Notes under the pieces: generated by a model | What the model was told of the DNA's origin: nothing | The model's database searches: none | The model's input: only the letters and a program-made list of their open reading frames with translations | Part shown: positions 8,285 through 20,590 of the stretch, one piece after another | Layout of the letters: every line of letters begins with the position of its first letter | How positions within the stretch are numbered: the stretch's first letter is position 1 | Program-made: the position numbers and the translations under genes | Assembly (NCBI GenBank): GCA_021774875.1 | Contig: JAJFIP010000298.1 | Span: 1 to 35,484, forward strand | DNA from: Emcibacter sp. | GTDB lineage: Bacteria; Pseudomonadota; Alphaproteobacteria; Sphingomonadales; Emcibacteraceae | Direction: 5' to 3' | DNA: 35,484 bases

Positions 8285-9436
8285 TTAATCCTGCAGCTTC
8301 TTGCTATATAGACGATAATTTTTATACCGCCAGCAGCCGATAGTTTCCAGCATTTTTGACAGTCGGGTATTTTCTTCCAGAACCCATGACAGTTCTGCAT
8401 GGGTGCTTCCGGCCCCGGCAATATGAAATCTGCTTTCTTCGATCAAGGCAAAGGCCATGGCCCCGCCAACCACTGTATTCTGCAATTCTTTTCTAACGCC
8501 CATAAGTGGTACACGAACCGTTTTATAATTGGGATTAATTCTCAGTCGCCATAACAGTTTAAGAATTCCAAAGGGAAATAAACGTCCATCCAGATCAGCG
8601 ATAATCTCGTTCAGGTTAGGTAATGTCACCATCATAGCCATGGGTACGCCGTCATATTCGGCTATATAAGTCAAATCTTCCCGGATTAGTAATTTCATAT
8701 CTTTAACGGTTTTTTCAAGTTCTGCTTCGGTAAAGGGCAGGGCCATCCAGTTATCTGACCAGGCATCATTATATATATCGAGGATAGTTTTCAGATCTTG
8801 CTCATAATTTTTCATATTAATGCTGCGTAGCCTGACTTTGCCATCCCGCATGCTGCGTTTGATCAATTTATCAATTGTGGGGGGGAGAATTTCTTTCTCT
8901 ATATTCAGGTAATAAGCCCATAAATCCTTGATTTTTTCCATGCCATATCCAGTCATCAAATCCTGATAATAGGGCTGGGCATGGTTCATCATCAGACTGG
9001 GCGGGGTATCGAAACCCTCCACCAGCATACCGGTTTCTTCATTGATGGACAGGCTGAACGGACCCATAACGCTGTTGCGGCCCTGTTCCTTTAACCAGTC
9101 ACAGGCGGTATCCATCAGGACATTTGCCACCTGAGGATCATTGATTGATTCAAAAAAGCCGAAATGGCCTATTTTCTCATGGTGATATTGTTCCACAAGA
9201 TCATCAATCTGTGCTGAAATACGTCCTACGATCTCACCATCTTTGCAGGCGAGCCACAGTTTTGCCTGGGCATGCTCAAAAAAGGGGTTTTTCTTTTGGT
9301 CAAGAACTTCCATTCGTTCCATAATCAGGGGGGCTACCCAATTGGGATCATCTTTATACAGGGTCCAGGGTAATTTGACGAACTGCATCAGATCTTTTTT
9401 ATTTATCACTTCTTTGATGGTGACAGGTGATGTCAT
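8285..9436 (-). CDS. GNAT-fold acyltransferase-like protein, candidate bacterial ceramide synthase
   Basis: The protein has 383 residues. An N-terminal GNAT-like half contains KLWLACKDGEIVGRISAQID, the beta-hairpin typical of N-acyltransferases, then MGPFSLSINEETGMLVEGFD. A second GNAT-like lobe carries YIAEYDGVPMAMMVTLPN. This is a widespread family annotated only as hypothetical or N-acetyltransferase. In Caulobacter, the ceramide N-acyltransferase (bCerS, CC_1154) has been described as a GNAT-type protein in a sphingolipid gene neighbourhood. The location here, nine bases behind lptG and near spt/acp/cerR, makes the same role an attractive inference: attaching an acyl chain to the sphinganine amine. 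I cannot align the two proteins here, so the ceramide assignment is moderate while the fold is fairly secure. Confidence 0.7.
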   Translation of the reverse strand: MTSPVTIKEVINKKDLMQFVKLPWTLYKDDPNWVAPLIMERMEVLDQKKNPFFEHAQAKLWLACKDGEIVGRISAQIDDLVEQYHHEKIGHFGFFESINDPQVANVLMDTACDWLKEQGRNSVMGPFSLSINEETGMLVEGFDTPPSLMMNHAQPYYQDLMTGYGMEKIKDLWAYYLNIEKEILPPTIDKLIKRSMRDGKVRLRSINMKNYEQDLKTILDIYNDAWSDNWMALPFTEAELEKTVKDMKLLIREDLTYIAEYDGVPMAMMVTLPNLNEIIADLDGRLFPFGILKLLWRLRINPNYKTVRVPLMGVRKELQNTVVGGAMAFALIEESRFHIAGAGSTHAELSWVLEENTRLSKMLETIGCWRYKNYRLYSKKLQD

Positions 9437-9445
9437 TTAATTTCT

Positions 9446-10573
9446 CTATTCTTCAGTGAGCAGGATGAAACTTGTCCCGGTGAGGAAAAACAGCAAAAAT
9501 GGCAGCCAGGCTGCAATCACAGGGGGAACTGCGCCATATTGACCGAGCGCGACAAAAAGATTGTTAATGACAAAATAGCTGAACCCCATAGCCCCCGTCA
9601 GGGCAATTCGTCCGAATAAACCGCCACCGCGATGCAAACCAAATGCTGCAAGTCCCGCAAGCAATGGCATCAGCAATGTGCTTAAGGGGGCGACAAATTT
9701 CTGATAGAGCATAGTTTCAAAACTAGCCGTATTATGGCCTTCTTTTTCCAACTGGGTAATGGCTTTGCGTAAGCGTTGAAGATTAACCTGATCAGGTTTT
9801 AGGGCCAGCGCAATAAAACGTTCCGGGGGAAGGTCCGTATCCCAGAGCAGGTTTTCCATTGGGGTAACTTTCAGGGTCCGAATATCGAATTCCCTGACCT
9901 CAAACATAGTCCATTTACCATCTCGGTATACGGCAAAATCAGCCTTGATAAGCGAGGTGACGCGCATGTCCTTATCCCGGATATACTGGGTAACCTTATC
10001 TAAAAGCAGAATACTGCCATTTCGGCTGGCACTTTCCGCCTTGATCAGGTTATTACCGTCATTGACCCAAGCATCATATACCGTATCCGGTGCAGGGGGC
10101 AGGTCTGCGGCATATTTATTTTCTTTCCAGTTTCTCAATTCAGCCTTGGCGCCGATTGTAACAGTCTCGGTGAAAACAAAATGCAGACAGGCAATCAGCA
10201 GGGACATCAGTATCATCGGCATGATAATTCTGAAAGCAGACCAGCCCGATGCTTTCATAATGACAATCTCACTATGAACATTAAGACCGGCTAGACACAT
10301 GATGGCTGACAGCAGGGCGACGAAGGGGGAAAACAAAGACAATAAGGTAGGCACCCGTAAAGTCACATAATGCCAGAGGTCAGAATATACCGCGCCTTCA
10401 CCCGCCAGAATGTTATCAGATTCCGACAACAGATCCAGCATTTGCAGAGTTGCCACCAGCCCAACCAAAATAAATATATATCGGGTGGCAAATAACTTGG
10501 CCACATAGACATCCATACTACCCGGATCAACTAACCCACCTAAATGACTGGAATATTTGATAAATTTTTCCAT
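9446..10573 (-). CDS. lptG: LptG-type permease of the Lpt lipid export ABC transporter
   Basis: This is a YjgP/YjgQ-family protein of about 375 residues. Three N-terminal transmembrane helices are followed by a periplasmic beta-jellyroll domain (roughly residues 130-270) and three C-terminal helices. Typical elements are the first helix with RYIFILVGLVATLQMLDLL, a coupling segment FVALLSAIMCLAGLNVHSEI, MKASGWS, and the C-terminal LYQKFVAPLSTLLMPLLAG. LptG pairs with LptF and the ATPase LptB2 to extract lipopolysaccharide from the inner membrane. I chose ATG at 10573, one base after the lptF stop, over the TTG at 10585. The GNAT gene follows after nine bases. Its setting, with ceramide genes rather than lptD/pepA, suggests it may act on another lipid. 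Confidence 0.88.
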   Translation of the reverse strand: MEKFIKYSSHLGGLVDPGSMDVYVAKLFATRYIFILVGLVATLQMLDLLSESDNILAGEGAVYSDLWHYVTLRVPTLLSLFSPFVALLSAIMCLAGLNVHSEIVIMKASGWSAFRIIMPMILMSLLIACLHFVFTETVTIGAKAELRNWKENKYAADLPPAPDTVYDAWVNDGNNLIKAESASRNGSILLLDKVTQYIRDKDMRVTSLIKADFAVYRDGKWTMFEVREFDIRTLKVTPMENLLWDTDLPPERFIALALKPDQVNLQRLRKAITQLEKEGHNTASFETMLYQKFVAPLSTLLMPLLAGLAAFGLHRGGGLFGRIALTGAMGFSYFVINNLFVALGQYGAVPPVIAAWLPFLLFFLTGTSFILLTEE

Positions 10574-10574
10574 A

Positions 10575-11750
10575 TCAGCCTGCAATCCGTATGCGCTTGA
10601 TCAGTCGGCTTATGGCTTCCATTATCACTTCGTAGATTATCTCAATACGCCTTAATGGCATGCCGCCCACCTTATAGGCTCCGATGTAATACAGCCTGAC
10701 GGTGAGCAGGATCAGACACAAAGTGGGAACCCATATGGCCAGCCATGGAGATATGTCTCCTGTGGCGGAAAACCCAAGGCCAAATTCCAGTAACTTATGG
10801 TAAATGAGCAGTATGACAACCCCTACAGTGATTCCAAGTGCCCGGCCTGACCTTTTGGCGACCAGACCCAGGGGCAGGGCCAAAAACGGGACGATCAGGA
10901 TGGAAAGGGCGCGGGCCATCCGGGAATGAAGCATGGCAATTATCGCAGGGTCTTCACTGCCGCGCTTATCCCAAAGTTCAATGATGGTCATTTCCTTGGC
11001 TTCTTCACCCCGGTCCCGGAAACTGGCAAAATTTGGTACAGCCAGCGGCAGATCATGCATATCAAAATTTACGATGCTGGGTCGGCTCTGGGTTATATCC
11101 AGATCAATAAGCATTCCATCATAGAGTCTGAGGATCATATAACGTTTGTCGGGAGAGATAAAAAAATTGCCTTTTTTGGCACTGATGGATTGAATTCGGC
11201 CATTTTCAGATTCTTTTTGAGCAAATATATCAATGAGCTCCCGGCCAGAATCCAGCGATTCTTCGATCCTGAGCGTCAGACCATCACCAAGGTCGGTAAA
11301 TTCCCCGGCTTTGATGCTGGCGCCGAGTGCGCCGCTGCGAATGTCAAAGACCAGACCCTGATAGGTATAGCGGCTATAGGGCTGGACAAATCCCACCACA
11401 ATGACATTGACAATAAGCAGGAAAACTGCAACGTAAATACTGGGTAGAACAAGGCGGTTGAGGCTCATACCAGATGCCAGTAAAGCATCCAGTTCACTGT
11501 TAAGGGCAAGCTTGCGCACGGCAAGCAATACGCCCAGAAATACGGACAGGGGCAGTACTAATGTTAAATATTGCGGCATGAGATTACCCAGCATACGCCA
11601 GACAATATCGATTGGTCCGCCCTGATTGATGACAAAATCAAAAAGGCTGAGCATTTTTTCCAGCAATAACAACATTGCAGATATGCCTAAAGTCACCAGC
11701 AGAGGTAGAATAGTTATCTGCAAAATATATTTATCAATTTTTTTCAGCAT
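10575..11750 (-). CDS. lptF: LptF-type permease of the Lpt lipid export ABC transporter
   Basis: The protein has 391 residues of the YjgP/YjgQ family, first gene of the lptF-lptG-GNAT unit. The membrane helices are at about residues 10-32, 55-80 and 100-122, with a periplasmic domain between roughly 125 and 270 and three further helices. Family hallmarks include LPLSVFLGVLLAVRKLALNSEL, the ALLASGMS coupling segment (SGMSL near residue 94), and the C-terminal LGLVAKRSGRALGITVGVVI. LptF with LptG moves lipid up the periplasmic bridge. The start is ATG at 11750, facing a divergent kinase-like gene across an AT-rich spacer of about 200 bp that should contain its promoter. Whether this is the cell's only LptF or a paralogue for sphingolipid cannot be told from the window. 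Confidence 0.88.
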   Translation of the reverse strand: MLKKIDKYILQITILPLLVTLGISAMLLLLEKMLSLFDFVINQGGPIDIVWRMLGNLMPQYLTLVLPLSVFLGVLLAVRKLALNSELDALLASGMSLNRLVLPSIYVAVFLLIVNVIVVGFVQPYSRYTYQGLVFDIRSGALGASIKAGEFTDLGDGLTLRIEESLDSGRELIDIFAQKESENGRIQSISAKKGNFFISPDKRYMILRLYDGMLIDLDITQSRPSIVNFDMHDLPLAVPNFASFRDRGEEAKEMTIIELWDKRGSEDPAIIAMLHSRMARALSILIVPFLALPLGLVAKRSGRALGITVGVVILLIYHKLLEFGLGFSATGDISPWLAIWVPTLCLILLTVRLYYIGAYKVGGMPLRRIEIIYEVIMEAISRLIKRIRIAG

Positions 11751-11952
11751 TTAGTCGCTTTTAATCTGGAAATTTCTTAATTTCACGCTTATAGCATTTA
11801 GGGTGCAGACTTATAAATATTTTTTTGCTTAATGATCTCTATTTGTGGTTTTTATGAGACTAGAAAAAAATAATTGTTTTTGAATAATGGAAATTTAGTT
11901 GGGAATTATCGCTATTTTAAGTAGCCCATCCTCTTTTAAGGGGAATGGTGAG

Positions 11953-12861
11953 ATGGAAAAAATCCGTGCTGTTATTTCCAGCGGCTCGGGAATATTCCAC
12001 TACGAAGTTGAAAAGCATAAAGATATTGCCGAAGCTCTGACAAGATTTCAGCAAACAGACGTTGAAGCCATCGTTATTCTGGGTGACCGGGCACTGACCA
12101 CGGCAATTTTTGAATTTATTATAGAAAAAGACATATTTAAGGGGGCAGATATTCCCCTGGCCATTCTGCCAGTAGGTGACAATAATATTGTTGCGGGAAA
12201 TCTTGGTGCAATACGCTCAGAACCACATAAGGTCTTGAAGACCATTCTCCTCCACCATCAAAAAGGAGATTTGCAGGATAAGGTAACTGAATATCCTCTG
12301 ATCAAACTGGAAGGGGTAAGAGGGGTCGGTTATCTTTACGGACTTTTCTTTTGCGCTGGCGAAATAATCAAGCAGAAAAATATATTTAAAGGGAAAATAT
12401 CCTCTAAAGGTTTATTATTTTATTTGCGAAACTGGCTGAATATTTCTCTGTTGCTAAAAAATGCTTATCTTGGTGCCATGGGAAAAGCCAGTCTTGAAAA
12501 TGCCATCCGAATAAACCGCAATCAGCGTGGTGCGGTAGTTGGTGATTTTTTTATGGTGCTGATTACCACTCTGGACAAGGCCTTCTGGGGCGTATCAATC
12601 GGGCAGAATAGAAGGCAGGACAAGGCGCATTTTATCAGCGTTGAAGATACCCCAAAGGCGGTATTTGAAACCGGGAAACTTATGCTTCGGGGAAATTATG
12701 ACGGCATAAATCACGCGGGTAATATCATAGCCGAAATTCAGCATGCCAGAATTGTGCTGCAAACGCCGTTCGTTCTTGATGGCAGTTACTATGAAACAGA
12801 TGAAACAGGCGAATTATTTGTGACCGTTACCGATAGCCTGAAATTTGTCACATTAAGCTAG
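11953..12861 (+). CDS. Diacylglycerol/ceramide kinase-like protein with altered nucleotide motif
   Basis: The protein has 302 residues when started at ATG 11953. That ATG has a good ribosome site (AAGGGGAA about nine bases upstream); an upstream TTG at 11899 adds 18 residues that look non-coding. The fold resembles the DAGK/LCB5 family: a start of MEKIRAVISSGSG type, then IVILGDRALTTAIFEFI where the family has GGDGTLNEV, then IPLAILPVGDNNIVAGNLG where it has LGIIPLGTGNDFAR. The C-terminus has VLDGSYYETDETGEL, like the usual DGE substrate loop. The glycine-rich ATP motif (residues 43-48) is therefore degenerate. In Caulobacter a DAGK-family protein, CpgB, is a ceramide kinase, and the neighbours here are spt (convergent, 9 bp overlap) and lptF. 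It may be an active divergent kinase or a lipid-binding pseudo-kinase. Confidence 0.72.
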   Translation: MEKIRAVISSGSGIFHYEVEKHKDIAEALTRFQQTDVEAIVILGDRALTTAIFEFIIEKDIFKGADIPLAILPVGDNNIVAGNLGAIRSEPHKVLKTILLHHQKGDLQDKVTEYPLIKLEGVRGVGYLYGLFFCAGEIIKQKNIFKGKISSKGLLFYLRNWLNISLLLKNAYLGAMGKASLENAIRINRNQRGAVVGDFFMVLITTLDKAFWGVSIGQNRRQDKAHFISVEDTPKAVFETGKLMLRGNYDGINHAGNIIAEIQHARIVLQTPFVLDGSYYETDETGELFVTVTDSLKFVTLS

Positions 12862-14082
12862 GGCAGTTTCAGAAACATTCTGCAACAAGCCCAATTTTTC
12901 ACCAACAAGGGTAAATTTTTCCAACATAAATTCAATCTGTTCTAATGTGTGGGCCGCAGACAGGCTGCAACGCATCAGATTCAAGCCATTAGGTGTGGCT
13001 GGCGGCAGTGCCAGGTTGACATAAACGCCTTCCCTGATCATTTCTCCCCAAAAGGCGATGGCGGTATTCTGGTCTGCTACGATTATGGCGGCGATAGGGC
13101 TTTCGCCTGTGGTCCCCATTTTAAATCCGGCCTGATCCAGTCCGTTGTTAAGCTTCATGGAATTGCTTAGAAGCTTGCTGCGCAGGTTGGTGCTGGCAAT
13201 AAGCTCCAGTGCCTTGGTGGCAGAAGCCACAACAGATGGCGGCAGGGAAGCTGTAAACATATAAGGCCGGCAGACCAGACGCAGTGCTTCAAATTTTGGA
13301 TGGTTTGAGACGCAGTATCCGCCAATAGTGCCAACGCTTTTGCTGAATGTGCCAACGATGAAATCTACCTGATCCTCAACACCCTGTTCCTGAGCAACAC
13401 CGCGCCCGGTTTCTCCAAATACGCCGATGGAGTGGGCTTCGTCCACCAGTACATGGGCATGATGTTTCTTGGATGTTTCGGTCAGTTCTTTCAACGGGGC
13501 CTGATCGCCGAGCATACTATAGACCCCTTCCAGAACCACCAGAATACCGGCTTCAGGATCATTTCTGCGGATGCGGGCCAGTCTTTTATCAAGATTTTCT
13601 GGATCATTATGTTTGAAACGTACAATTGTGGCATTACCCAGAGCGCAGCCATCATAAATGCTGGCATGGCTGTCCGCATCAATCACCACATAATCTTTGG
13701 GGCCAGCCAAGGTTGCTATTACCCCGAGATTCGCCTGATAGCCGGTGGAAAAAACAATAGCATAGTCAGTATCATAAAATTTTTTCAGACATTCTTCCAA
13801 CTGCTTATGGCCATCGTAGGTTCCGTTCAGTACCCGCGACCCGGTGGTGCCGGTTCCCAGACTGGTCAGGGCTTCCTGCGCTGCCGCCATACATTCCGCA
13901 TTAAAGGTCATCCCCATATAATTATTGGTACCCGCCAAGATAGTTTCCCGACCATTGATGATAGCCGTTGTCGGGGACAGGACTTTTTCCATGCTGACGG
14001 TGAAGGGATTTGCTTCTCCTTCTGGCAAGCCATTGTAATCATTCAGGATCGGGTCAAATTTTTCAAAGAGATCAAGTGTCAT
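12853..14082 (-). CDS. spt: Serine palmitoyltransferase (alpha-oxoamine synthase)
   Basis: The protein has 409 residues of the PLP-dependent alpha-oxoamine synthase family, which condenses an amino acid with an acyl thioester with loss of CO2. Key features are NNYMGMTF near residue 53, GTGTTGSRVLNGTYDGH, the cofactor-contacting DEAHS (D214, H217) and the Schiff-base lysine in TFSKSVGTIGGY (K248). ALAS, KBL and BioF share these motifs. The Spt choice rests on the neighbours: an ACP gene overlapping its start (TAATG), a ketone-reductase-like SDR and an acyl-AMP ligase in one unit, as in Caulobacter. It should form 3-oxosphinganine from serine and acyl-ACP. The start is ATG at 14082. It is last in its operon and convergent with the kinase-like gene. 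Confidence 0.9.
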   Translation of the reverse strand: MTLDLFEKFDPILNDYNGLPEGEANPFTVSMEKVLSPTTAIINGRETILAGTNNYMGMTFNAECMAAAQEALTSLGTGTTGSRVLNGTYDGHKQLEECLKKFYDTDYAIVFSTGYQANLGVIATLAGPKDYVVIDADSHASIYDGCALGNATIVRFKHNDPENLDKRLARIRRNDPEAGILVVLEGVYSMLGDQAPLKELTETSKKHHAHVLVDEAHSIGVFGETGRGVAQEQGVEDQVDFIVGTFSKSVGTIGGYCVSNHPKFEALRLVCRPYMFTASLPPSVVASATKALELIASTNLRSKLLSNSMKLNNGLDQAGFKMGTTGESPIAAIIVADQNTAIAFWGEMIREGVYVNLALPPATPNGLNLMRCSLSAAHTLEQIEFMLEKFTLVGEKLGLLQNVSETALA

Positions 14083-14345
14083 TATTCGTCCAGTGATTCT
14101 TCAGCAAGTAATTTCTGTACGGCATCGGTGAATTGGCCGACTGTTTCCAGATCTGGTAGCAGGTTAAGGGGAACAGTAATGTCAAATTCATCCTCTATTT
14201 CAGCCAGAAGATCCATCACCGTCAGGGAATCAAGCTCCAGATCAACACTGAAAATCGTGTCCCTGCTCAAGGTGACCTTTTTAGTGTTAAAGGGTTCAAT
14301 GAGCGAGCAAATCTGCTTAAAAATTTCATCAACATTCTGGGTCAT
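14082..14345 (-). CDS. Acyl carrier protein dedicated to sphingolipid synthesis (AcpR-like)
   Basis: The protein has 87 residues from ATG 14345, which has GGAAG five bases upstream; a TTG at 14357 is the less likely start. The phosphopantetheine site is the serine of LELDSLTVMDLL (S40), followed by an acidic helix II-III region (AEIEDEFDITVP) typical of carrier proteins. It lies between cerR and spt, with its stop overlapping the spt start by one base. In Caulobacter a specialised ACP, AcpR, delivers the acyl chain to Spt, and the same role is inferred here. It would be loaded by the ligase at the head of the operon. Confidence 0.88.
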   Translation of the reverse strand: MTQNVDEIFKQICSLIEPFNTKKVTLSRDTIFSVDLELDSLTVMDLLAEIEDEFDITVPLNLLPDLETVGQFTDAVQKLLAEESLDE

Positions 14346-14382
14346 ATATGCTTCCAACTGGAATAATTAAGTTATAGTGAAT

Positions 14383-15324: not shown

Positions 15325-17067
15325 CTAAACCACTAATTCACCGGCAAGATATTGTTTTCTTGCCTTGACCCGACTTAATTTTCCAGAGGATGTGCGCGGC
15401 AGGGAGCGCGGCGGGATCAGGGCAACGATAGGGGAAATTCCGATCATGGAATGAACAGTGTCTTTAATTTTGCTTTCCATTGCGGTCCGTTCTTCTTCGT
15501 CACGGGTGCGACATTGAACCAGAATGGCAGGAACTTCTTCCTCACGTTCGCCTGGAATGGAAACGGCGGCGATATCACCGGAGCGCAAATCATCCAGTTG
15601 CTCAACCGCCCACTCAATATCCTGTGGCCAGTGGTTTTTGCCATTAATAATAATCAGGTCTTTAACCCGGCCAATAATATAGAGGGAACCTTCTTTCATA
15701 TATCCCATGTCACCGGTATCAAGCCATCTGTCCTCGGACAGGCAATTATGGGTTGCTTCTGGGTCTTGAAAATATCCGACCATGACGCTGGCTCCCCGCA
15801 CGCATACCCGGCCAATCTGATACTCCCCCAGATCAACATTATTGTCATCACGGATTTCAAGTTCATATTCAGACAGGGGAACACCGCAGTTTACAACACT
15901 ACGATAACTCACGCCGTTACCATTAACCTTGAATTTTTTCAGGTTTTTTTCTTCTCCGGATAATACTTTTTCATGCACCAGATCAATTTCAAAGCCTGTA
16001 TTCAGGCGGGCAAAACTCACCGCTAACGTGCATTCCGCTAGACCATAGTTTGGCAGGAAGGTCGTATTTTTAAAACCGACCTCTTTGAAGGTTTCCTGAA
16101 ATTTTGTCAGTACATCAGCCCTGATCATATCGCCGCCAATGCTGGCAACGCGCCATGATGATAAATCCAGATCAGCGATTTTAGTGGGGCCAGCACGACG
16201 GGCACAGATGTCATAGCCGAATGTGGGGCCACCGGACAGTGTCGCTTTGTTTCTGGAAATAAGTTTTAACCATTGCAGGGGCCGACGGGCAAAAGATTCT
16301 GTCGCCAGGTAATCTGTCGTGATCTGGTTGGTAATCGGGGACAGTAAGGCGCCGACCAGCCCCATATCATGGTAAAAGGGCAACCATGATACTATCCGGT
16401 CATCTTCGGTAAGATTCATGCCTTCGCCGCCAATACCGTGGCAGTTTGCCAGAAGTGATTTATGGGTTACGGCAACACCGTGAGGGAAACGTGTGCTGCC
16501 GGATGAATATTGCAGGTAGGCCAGATCTTCCGGCTGTGCTTCGGGAAGGGAGATTTTTCTAATTTCTCTGAGTGATGCCTGAGCTTCAAATGTGGTCGAA
16601 GTTCCGACAAACTTCATCTTTTTCAAACCGGATGTGGCCTCATCCAGCAATGGCAGCATATAGGAGGCTGAAATGGCCACCGTCGCGCCGCAACTTTTCA
16701 TAAGTTGATTAAGCTGGCTGGTATATCCCTCACGCCCACCAAAAGAAGTGGGTAGTGGCAGTGGTACAGGTAATAATCCGGCATATTGGCAGCCGATAAA
16801 ATAATAGACAAACTCATCGCTGGTTTCTGCAATCAGGGCTACGCGAGAGCCTTTTTCAATACCGAAATGGATGAAGCGTCGCCCTATTTCCTGCGCCTTT
16901 TTGCATATTTTAGCAAAACTTATGCTGGTTTCCAGTTCACCTCGTGGGGAATAGAAATTAAGGCCCCGGATGCCTTTAGCTGCATACTCAATTGCTTCCA
17001 GAAGGGTGCCAAAATCAGCAAGCCTGCGGGGAAGGGTCGGGTCATGTGTAGGAGTTGGTTCACGCAT
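15325..17067 (-). CDS. Fatty acyl-AMP ligase-type adenylate-forming enzyme (acyl-ACP synthetase)
   Basis: The protein has 580 residues. The adenylation motif YLQYSSGSTRFPHGV (about 184-198) has the STR-x-P form seen in FAALs, rather than STGxPKG. Further motifs are SWLPFYHDMGLVG, the YGLAEC box, WLDTGDMGY, and GRVKDLIIINGKNHWPQDIE, a strong FAAL signature. The C-terminal catalytic lysine is in TSSGKLSR (K563). FAALs form acyl-adenylates and pass them to carrier proteins rather than CoA. As first gene of the unit with cerR, acp and spt, it probably charges the neighbouring ACP, as inferred for Caulobacter CC_1165. The start is ATG at 17067, without an evident Shine-Dalgarno. The promoter should lie in the 192 bp gap up to the EamA gene. 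Confidence 0.87.
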   Translation of the reverse strand: MREPTPTHDPTLPRRLADFGTLLEAIEYAAKGIRGLNFYSPRGELETSISFAKICKKAQEIGRRFIHFGIEKGSRVALIAETSDEFVYYFIGCQYAGLLPVPLPLPTSFGGREGYTSQLNQLMKSCGATVAISASYMLPLLDEATSGLKKMKFVGTSTTFEAQASLREIRKISLPEAQPEDLAYLQYSSGSTRFPHGVAVTHKSLLANCHGIGGEGMNLTEDDRIVSWLPFYHDMGLVGALLSPITNQITTDYLATESFARRPLQWLKLISRNKATLSGGPTFGYDICARRAGPTKIADLDLSSWRVASIGGDMIRADVLTKFQETFKEVGFKNTTFLPNYGLAECTLAVSFARLNTGFEIDLVHEKVLSGEEKNLKKFKVNGNGVSYRSVVNCGVPLSEYELEIRDDNNVDLGEYQIGRVCVRGASVMVGYFQDPEATHNCLSEDRWLDTGDMGYMKEGSLYIIGRVKDLIIINGKNHWPQDIEWAVEQLDDLRSGDIAAVSIPGEREEEVPAILVQCRTRDEEERTAMESKIKDTVHSMIGISPIVALIPPRSLPRTSSGKLSRVKARKQYLAGELVV

Positions 17068-17259: not shown

Positions 17260-18177
17260 CTATTTCTTGGTTGTTGGTTCTGACGCGGCGATTTTTCTTC
17301 TTTTTTCTGCCAGATAAATTCCAGCTAAAATGAATGAGGCGGATACTATATATGTCGCTTTTAAGGGCTCATTCAGCCAAATATAGCCTGCTGCCATGCC
17401 CACAAGAGGAATCAGATAGGAGTTATAGGATACAAAGGTTGCTCCGGCCAGATGGGTCAGATGAAATAATATTAATGATGCTATTCCTGTTGCCACTATG
17501 CCCAGTATCAGAATGGAATATATGGCTGGTGCCGTGGGGTTGAGGGCCCATGGTTGCTCAAATATCAAGGCAAGGGGAATGGTGATCAAGGTCGCGCTGA
17601 TCAACATGGCAGAAGCTGTGCTAAGCGGGTCTTTATTTTTAAGTTTTTTGACCAGAACTCCGGCTAATGAATAGAAAAATGCAGTTGCCACTAACCCAGA
17701 TAGTGCCAGAAGCATTATTGGAGAACTATCCAATTCAGTCATAGTGCCGTAAAACAGACTTCCCACACCAACAAAACCGAAGACTATCCCAATTAATTTT
17801 TTTACGCTGAATTTTTCATCATGGGTCATATAATGGGCAAGGGTCATGGTAAAAAGTGGAGTCAAAGACATACATATGGCCGCCAGAGAGCTATGGACAT
17901 ATTGGATGCTCCAGTTCACCAGCAAAAAGGGAAGAATCGTACCTGTTACACCGACAATAGTACATTGAACCCATTCGGAAAGCTCACGGGGGAGTTTTAC
18001 ACCCATTTTCAAAGCAATGACGGTTATGACAATAGCCCCGATAGCGATGCGCAAGGCGGCAATGGTCAGCGGAGTTATGCTATCCAGTGAAATTTTGACA
18101 AACATGAACGCACTGCCCCAGAACAGGGCAAGTAGTATTAAGTAAATAAAATGACTTGGTGCTCTATTTTCAATCAT
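17260..18177 (-). CDS. EamA-family (DMT superfamily) inner-membrane transporter
   Basis: The protein has 305 residues with ten hydrophobic helices arranged as two EamA repeats. The first begins at LILLALFWGSAFMFVKIS, and the second after a short loop near residue 150 (SGLVATAFFYSLAGVLVKKL). The C-terminal LIPLVGMAAGYIWLNEPL is a standard DMT signature. These proteins export metabolites or amino acids, and substrate cannot be inferred. The start is ATG at 18177, only 22 bases from the divergent recX start, so the promoters must overlap. It is the gene upstream of the ceramide ligase on the same strand, with a 192 bp gap, so co-transcription is possible but not shown. Confidence 0.88.
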   Translation of the reverse strand: MIENRAPSHFIYLILLALFWGSAFMFVKISLDSITPLTIAALRIAIGAIVITVIALKMGVKLPRELSEWVQCTIVGVTGTILPFLLVNWSIQYVHSSLAAICMSLTPLFTMTLAHYMTHDEKFSVKKLIGIVFGFVGVGSLFYGTMTELDSSPIMLLALSGLVATAFFYSLAGVLVKKLKNKDPLSTASAMLISATLITIPLALIFEQPWALNPTAPAIYSILILGIVATGIASLILFHLTHLAGATFVSYNSYLIPLVGMAAGYIWLNEPLKATYIVSASFILAGIYLAEKRRKIAASEPTTKK

Positions 18178-18784: not shown

Positions 18785-19231
18785 TCACCTTTTTTTTAGC
18801 AATTCCTGTAACTGGATCAGAAGTTCTGAAAGCTTTGCATGATTGTCCTTTCCCAGACCTTCAATCAGCGTATCTTCTAGCTTCTGGATTTCCCCCGTAT
18901 ATTTTTTTATGAATTTTTTGCCACTGGAGGTGATGGTCATGGTTTTTGATCGCCTGTCATTGCGGGCCGAGACCCTGTTGATCAAGTCATCTTTTTCAAA
19001 TTGCTTCAACACTGGCACCAGAGAGGAGCGATCAAGCCCCGCAGCTTTGGCAATCCGGCTTTGACTTTGCCCGGGATTATTGGCAATCAGTATCAGAATG
19101 GTGAAATGTCCGGGCAGGATACGTCCCCCCAGAACCTGTAAAAAAGTCTGGGCGGCCAGAGACTGTGCCTTGCGTAGTTCCAGGCCAACCATTTTATCCA
19201 GCATGCCATAGCTCAAATCATTATTTGTCAT
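18785..19231 (-). CDS. MarR-family transcriptional regulator
   Basis: The protein has 148 residues with the MarR winged-helix core: TILILIANNPGQSQSRIAKA, the recognition helix GLDRSSLVPVLKQFEKDDLI and the wing RVSARNDRRSKTMTITSSGK. N- and C-terminal helices form the dimer. It is divergent from the reductive-dehalogenase-like gene, and a perfect 16 bp palindrome lies between its promoter and its start, so it probably represses itself and perhaps the divergent gene. The start is ATG at 19231 with AGGTGA seven bases upstream. The ligand is unknown and may be a substrate of the neighbouring enzyme. Confidence 0.92.
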   Translation of the reverse strand: MTNNDLSYGMLDKMVGLELRKAQSLAAQTFLQVLGGRILPGHFTILILIANNPGQSQSRIAKAAGLDRSSLVPVLKQFEKDDLINRVSARNDRRSKTMTITSSGKKFIKKYTGEIQKLEDTLIEGLGKDNHAKLSELLIQLQELLKKR

Positions 19232-19318: not shown

Positions 19319-19393
19319 TGCACAATGATTTCCTACTGCTTGTGTATCAGAAGAATTGATATAAGATCAAGCATACCTGCAAAAGACTATTCC

Positions 19394-20590
19394 ATGACGG
19401 TAAAAAAATCTAATCTGAAAAATTATTTTAATTATGCCAGAGAAATTGATGACCTGACTGGCATCGAAGTACTTGATACATTTGAGAAATTCTGTCAAAG
19501 GGATGATGTTTTCTGCCGTGCCCGATGGGATGATGAGGTTTCCAGTCAAAAAACCAAAGATTTTTATCGGGGCTATTATATGCCCCATGCCAAGGCGCGT
19601 AAGTCGGATGGTTTTAGCCAGCGTGATTATGCCCTCAGAAATGCCGCATGGCATGTCTGCAATTTATTTCGGGAGCAGAAGGCAGGCCGCAGGGAAGGAT
19701 TTCAGGATCATTTTACTTCCCATGATGATGGCTGGCATGAACCCTATGCTTTTGAATCAGCCGCGCAGGCTACTGATGACATCCGGAAAGTCGCGGTTTT
19801 TTCCGGCGCGGATCTGGTGGGATTCTGTGCCTATGATGAGCGTTGGATGTATGACGGTATTTATGACACTAATGGTAAATCCAAGCCCATTGATATTCCT
19901 GATGACCTGACGGGTGTCATCGTCGTAGGTGAAGCCATGGATAAGGATCTTACGGCCACCGTTCCGTCCGCACTGGCCGGGTCGGCTACGGGCATGGGAT
20001 ATACCAATGACTGCGTGACATTGCTCACCATGGCGCAATATATCCGTAATCTGGGCTACCGGGCTTATGCCACCATGAATGACAGTGCGCTGGCCGTGCC
20101 GCTTGGTATTCAGGCGGGGCTTGGCGAAGGCGGACGCCATAGTTTGCTGATAACGCCGGAATTCGGGGCGCGGTTGCGTCTTGGTAAAATATTTACAGAT
20201 ATGCCATTGGTGTTTGACACGCCCATGAGTTTCGGGGTGAAGGAATTCTGCGAAATCTGTAACCGCTGTGCCAAAGGATGCCCGCCAAAAGCCATCAGTT
20301 TTGATGCGCCTTCTGATCATACCTTTAATCGCTCAAATCTGAAAGGCGTTGTCAAATGGTCCACTGACGCCGAGAAATGCTTTAAATTCTGGGTCAATCA
20401 GAATACAGATTGTTCCATCTGTATCCGGGTCTGCCCCTACAATAGGGATTACCGCAAATGGTATAACAGGGCGTGGCAATGGTTAGCCGGGGGGCGGGCA
20501 CGGAAAATAGCCCTGTGGCTGGATGATAAATTTGCTCAGCGGGCCAGAATGAAATCCGGCGACTGGTGGCAAAAGAAAAACATTGACTAG
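19394..20590 (+). CDS. Reductive-dehalogenase-like cobalamin/Fe-S protein, soluble
   Basis: The protein has 398 residues from ATG 19394. An upstream in-frame ATG at 19325 coincides with the predicted transcription start and adds residues that do not look coding, but neither start has a good ribosome site. The C-terminal half matches the RdhA family: a YTNDCVTLLTMAQYIRNLGY segment, AGLGEGGRHSLLITPEFGAR, then FTDMPL. Two ferredoxin-like clusters follow: CEICNRCAKGCP (C286, C289, C292, C296) and KCFKFW plus CSICIRVCP (C340, C343, C347). RdhA enzymes cleave carbon-halogen bonds with cobalamin. Unlike respiratory RdhA there is no Tat signal, and unlike the long NpRdhA type there is no fused flavin reductase. 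It may dehalogenate or perform another cobalamin reduction. The divergent MarR and the MFS gene behind it suggest an inducible catabolic module. Confidence 0.83.
   Translation: MTVKKSNLKNYFNYAREIDDLTGIEVLDTFEKFCQRDDVFCRARWDDEVSSQKTKDFYRGYYMPHAKARKSDGFSQRDYALRNAAWHVCNLFREQKAGRREGFQDHFTSHDDGWHEPYAFESAAQATDDIRKVAVFSGADLVGFCAYDERWMYDGIYDTNGKSKPIDIPDDLTGVIVVGEAMDKDLTATVPSALAGSATGMGYTNDCVTLLTMAQYIRNLGYRAYATMNDSALAVPLGIQAGLGEGGRHSLLITPEFGARLRLGKIFTDMPLVFDTPMSFGVKEFCEICNRCAKGCPPKAISFDAPSDHTFNRSNLKGVVKWSTDAEKCFKFWVNQNTDCSICIRVCPYNRDYRKWYNRAWQWLAGGRARKIALWLDDKFAQRARMKSGDWWQKKNID

Follow-up and report, generated by a model that had tools for sequence, protein, structure and literature searches.

The closest described relative of the locus reported here is found in Caulobacter, where LptC2, LptF2 and LptG2 (CC_1168, CC_1156 and CC_1155) were proposed in 2024 to transport phosphosphingolipids selectively (PMC11324152). 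Mutants in CC_1156 (LptF2) and CC_1168 (LptC2) were cofit with a sphingolipid head-group gene, orthologs of LptC2/F2/G2 were listed for Sphingomonas wittichii and Zymomonas, and the authors noted that the route taken by sphingolipids to the outer membrane had yet to be established (PMC11324152). A role for LptFG in sphingolipid export has thus already been published for Caulobacter and is not a new hypothesis (PMC11324152). In the E. coli-type complex, LptG residue K40 contacts the 4'-phosphate of lipid A and K41 contacts the inner core (PMC6744409). In E. coli, two glutamates, E84 of LptF and E88 of LptG, provide the coupling to LptB (PMC5082905).

Here we describe an lptF-lptG pair from the marine bacterium Emcibacter sp. 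(contig JAJFIP010000298.1). The whole stretch of DNA that was analysed, 35,484 nucleotides, is referred to as the window. The initial annotation of this DNA had suggested that the pair may be a dedicated or dual-purpose exporter of ceramide-based lipid.

Layout of the ceramide and LptFG genes

The relevant genes of the window are listed below with the evidence for each assignment.

8285–9436, minus strand: GNAT-family ceramide synthase candidate (bCerS/CerS); PF00583; homologues adjoin LptFG in most cer-linked loci
9446–10573, minus strand: lptG, sphingolipid-type; TIGR04408, 276.8 bits against a cut-off of 240
10575–11750, minus strand: lptF, sphingolipid-type, 391 aa; TIGR04407, 250.8 bits against a cut-off of 230
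11899–12861, plus strand: DAGK-like lipid kinase, a ceramide-kinase candidate, divergent from lptF; PF00781, E 3e-4, below the gathering cut-off
12853–14082, minus strand: spt, serine palmitoyltransferase; NF047599, 611 bits, cut-off 500
14082–14357, minus strand: acyl carrier protein (AcpR-like); PF00550
14383–15321, minus strand: SDR reductase (CerR-like); PF01370, assigned by position and homologues
15325–17067, minus strand: fatty acyl-AMP ligase (AasR-like); NF006624, 787 bits, cut-off 600
17260–18177, minus strand: EamA-family transporter upstream of aasR, a possible but uncertain member of the cluster (flippase?); PF00892

Both members of the pair scored above the NCBIfam equivalog cut-offs for LptF and LptG and gave clear PDB matches. 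The lptG open reading frame (9446–10585, minus strand, 379 aa) opens at a TTG at 10585, with a likely ATG start at 10573. Because the lptF stop codon occupies 10577–10575, lptF and lptG abut, as the initial annotation had read them. The same is true of its placement of the GNAT gene, which starts at 9436, nine bases past the lptG stop at 9446. The pair had also been assigned to one operon with the ceramide synthase candidate. This holds for lptF-lptG-cerS, which form one unit, while aasR-cerR-acp-spt (17067–12853, minus strand) form a separate unit, and the oppositely oriented kinase-like gene between spt and lptF splits the two. A promoter and terminator scan of the gap between lptF and the kinase gene returned nothing above chance. 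The usual lpt neighbours were indeed missing, with no match to lptD, pepA, surA, pdxA or rsmA anywhere in the window. Further along the window, 19325–20590 (plus strand) encodes a protein that has reductive-dehalogenase-like as well as 4Fe-4S domains, beside an MFS transporter gene.

The gene order recurs in all family members fetched (L050–L053, L092 and L096–L098), with the DAGK-like kinase gene in the same place. The EamA gene is adjacent in those members with enough flank (L051–L053, L092 and L096–L098) and was not found in the loci of other families. When loci were retrieved with LptG alone, spt or cerS lay within 9 kb in 46 of the 56 that had full flanks, and this linkage recurs across many families. 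Taken together, the recurrence within the family and the frequency of linkage indicate that the gene order is not due to chance.

Two types of LptFG

Phylogenetic trees placed the LptF and LptG proteins of spt/cerS-linked loci, along with the second pairs of genomes containing both LPS genes and spt, in one group (cer-type) apart from the canonical copies. The split between cer-type and canonical copies is accounted for by one change, with SH-aLRT values of 94 for LptF and 98 for LptG when the very long row L046 was left out. L046 (G073:C2:493000–509000) is a very divergent LptFG-like pair from a genome without spt; its branch, with a length of about 5, fell inside the cer-type clade, and the trees were rebuilt without it. 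In both the LptF and LptG trees, the window pair fell in the cer-linked clade with other spt-linked copies, a grouping the initial annotation had put forward as a check, and not with the pepA-lptFG-lptD copies. The closest named LptG matches were in Emcibacter and Emcibacteraceae genomes (83–92% and 69% identity), followed by Kordiimonas, Iodidimonas, Sphingomonadaceae and Parvularculaceae at 38–47% identity. Within the cer-type clade, the gene trees call for only about four to five changes between having and lacking LPS.

One group of cer-type copies, in Parvularculaceae, sits apart from spt and cerS, a point against reading the cer-type pair as a sphingolipid exporter. These loci (L120–L167, Parvularculaceae/Marinicaulis) have neither spt nor cerS within 9 kb. 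Most of them carry a MarR-family gene about 5–7 kb downstream that is similar to the MarR gene of the window (18785–19231).

We then compared the residues that contact LPS or LptB in E. coli. The site equivalent to LptG K40 carries Arg in 23 of the 26 canonical alphaproteobacterial copies, and at least 111 of 115 cer-type copies have a non-basic residue there, mainly Asp, Gly, Ser or Glu. At the K41 site, all 26 canonical copies have Arg or Lys; the cer-type copies are mixed, and about 33 of the 115 are still basic. The window LptG has Asp and Asn at these two sites and so does not carry the basic LPS-contact pair. Its motif here is DLLSESDNIL, compared to D-x-[VI]-E-L-L-R-R in canonical copies. 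Across LptG segment 34–46, mean net charge shifts from +0.31 in canonical copies to −2.26 in cer-type copies. The substrate-residue comparison suggested by the initial annotation therefore came out in its favor, with the two basic LPS-contact sites mostly acidic or neutral in the cer-type. E. coli K34, R133 and R136 were dropped as substrate markers, since the canonical LptG copies of Alphaproteobacteria themselves do not conserve these residues. The residue argument thus rests on few sites, given this lack of conservation and the frequency of basic residues at the K41 site.

LptF E84 and LptG E88 do not vary in either type among the sequences that fill these columns, and the window LptF keeps the coupling-helix Glu. 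The invariant coupling glutamates combined with the altered basic sites of LptG indicate that ATPase coupling is kept and that the lipid-facing site is altered in part.

Lipid A genes, the Lpt bridge and LptFG copy number

Statements about whole genomes rest on HMM searches. The source genome, which is 99.06% complete, contains exactly two PF03739 genes, the lptF/lptG pair of the window. The second copy that the initial annotation had advised searching for was thus not found with PF03739. LpxC was detected in none of 60 genomes of the order, the source genome included, while the E. coli and Caulobacter controls were positive. With LpxC missing throughout these 60, of which 45 are of good quality, an assembly gap was rejected as the cause of the missing LPS genes. 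No LpxB was found in the source genome or in 13 other genomes of the order that were tested, and no WaaA (Kdo transferase) was found in the source genome. A genome without lipid A synthesis does not fit a canonical LPS exporter. A PF04413 WaaA-like Kdo transferase domain was detected in four LpxC-lacking genomes of the order, namely G018 (G018:C4:328131–328628), which is also without LpxB, and three genomes of family f4 (G040:C39, G046:C9 and G051:C135). In these genomes, the acceptor of Kdo may be a molecule different from lipid A.

The remaining Lpt components are encoded elsewhere in the source genome, as LptD (L067) and an lptC-lptA-lptB-rpoN cluster (L088). LptA, LptB and LptC scored above the equivalog cut-offs, and there is a single LptC (PF06835). 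The lptD locus reads rsmA-pdxA-surA-lptD-pepA, with a gap of only 120 bp between lptD and pepA. In most LPS-making Alphaproteobacteria that were fetched, lptG and lptF lie between these two genes; the junction is likewise without lptGF in 11 more LPS-free genomes.

In order to relate copy number to lipid genes, we surveyed 153 genomes of the class with completeness of at least 95%. At least four PF03739 genes were present in 7 of 8 genomes having both spt and LpxC. Genomes with LpxC and no spt had exactly two in 113 of 121 cases, and only one of the 121 reached the threshold of four (with four genes). The difference between 7/8 and 1/121 gave a Fisher p of 6e-10 in a test that ignores phylogeny. 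Exactly two PF03739 genes were found in 16 of 17 genomes with spt and no LpxC, and all 16 pairs are cer-type by both locus and tree. The same pattern can be seen within families: in f75, G126 is cer-type and LPS-free while G208 is canonical and makes LPS; in f26 the type is swapped between G174 and G077; and in f43, G187 has both types while G094 has the canonical type only. An exception to the copy-number rule is G115 (L173, L018), which combines LPS genes with a full ceramide cluster and has canonical LptFG only. Three genomes with canonical LptFG, no spt and no detected LpxC (G100, G103 and G159) were dropped as exceptions because LpxB is present; these are probably LPS makers in which LpxC was missed. 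Within the order, 12 of 98 genomes have more than two PF03739 genes. Some LPS-free members (L055 and L059–L062, in G034, G224, G228 and G238) carry additional cer-type LptFG pairs or solitary LptF-like genes, which could point to a second exported lipid.

Of 44 genomes tested, 39 retain LptD, among them all the LPS-free spt genomes with LptFG. Wherever LptD is present it is single. As this includes the two-pair genomes, it points to a common translocon for both pairs. G106, a complete genome of 5.4 Mb, has aasR-cerR-acp-spt and cerS (L172, G106:C1:1500500–1520000) without LptFG, LptD or LptC, indicating that some sphingolipid makers manage without Lpt.

Proposed function and comparison with known systems

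Comparative genomics supports the ceramide-lipid exporter suggested by the initial annotation, as the pair belongs to a separate clade and the genome is without lipid A synthesis. Set against that idea had been the case of a sole pair clustering with canonical LPS exporters; the pair is indeed the only one, but it does not cluster with those exporters. Because these are the only copies, lie in a non-canonical clade and occur without lipid A synthesis, "dedicated" is favored here over "dual-purpose". Judged from sequence, the pair is very probably a dedicated, LptB2-driven sphingolipid extractor that feeds the ordinary LptC-LptA-LptD bridge; we infer its substrate, the direction of transport and its use of the shared bridge and LptD. 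AasR, AcpR, Spt, CerR and CerS would build ceramide, which would then gain a polar head group, possibly first through the divergent kinase, whose presence hints at a phosphorylated ceramide. The cer-type LptFG, powered by LptB2 encoded elsewhere in the genome, would pull the finished sphingolipid from the inner membrane and pass it to the LptC-LptA-LptD bridge.

We gave next to no credence to an ordinary LPS exporter that lies beside ceramide genes by chance. Both proteins pass the LptF and LptG equivalog cut-offs and LptA through LptD are all present, as such an exporter would require, but LpxC, LpxB and WaaA are missing from the genome, the clade is separate from canonical copies and the basic LPS-contact site is gone. 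Thus, this reading is largely refuted. It is also improbable that LptFG-LptD exports another bulky glycolipid that replaces LPS, with a linkage to ceramide genes that is regulatory or historical. In its favor, certain cer-type copies lie away from spt, and the few relatives with a WaaA-like Kdo transferase and no LpxC raise the possibility of unusual glycolipids in the order. However, a second pair occurs almost only in spt genomes, and recurrent linkage to spt/cerS in many families argues against a mere historical association.

An action of sphingolipid-type LptFG and LptB at the inner membrane only (e.g. release or flipping), with LptD kept for another job, appears very unlikely. The ceramide genes of G106, which occur without any Lpt parts, do indicate that LptD is not indispensable for handling ceramide lipid, but LptD is retained in every LPS-free spt genome with LptFG and is missing along with LptFG in G106, so that the presence of one goes with that of the other. 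We retain the dedicated sphingolipid extractor, and lean slightly toward a broader model in which the choice of lipid by an Lpt bridge sits in LptFG. LPS-type and sphingolipid-type pairs would dock onto one shared LptC-LptA-LptD, and several changes of surface lipid would have come about as lineages deleted lipid A synthesis together with the LPS-type pair but kept the bridge.

In the literature searched, mostly outside subscription journals and in main texts only, we did not find the LPS-free single-pair state, the lptD/pepA deletion, the copy-number rule or the LptG residue switch. A lineage that has no LPS and whose only LptFG is sphingolipid-type offers a clean genetic test in which LPS export does not interfere, and the switch of residues in LptG points to a possible site of lipid selection. 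Both bear on surface construction in LPS-free Gram-negatives and on what determines the lipid carried by an Lpt machine.

Similar to the window, Caulobacter crescentus has a second LptFG set beside spt/cerS genes, and the window pair appears orthologous to CC_1155/CC_1156, judging from genomes with both pairs in the same layout. Unlike Emcibacter sp., which has only the sphingolipid-type pair and one LptC and has lost the lipid A genes, Caulobacter retains LPS and the canonical pair. Borrelia burgdorferi, a diderm of an unrelated lineage that lacks LPS, is also reported to have an Lpt-type bridge (PMC10353723). The E. coli LptB2FGC-A-DE system shares the same permease families, the coupling glutamates E84/E88 and the LptA/C/D families, but there LptG K40/K41 contact LPS, whereas Emcibacter sp. 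has Asp/Asn at these sites and no LPS.
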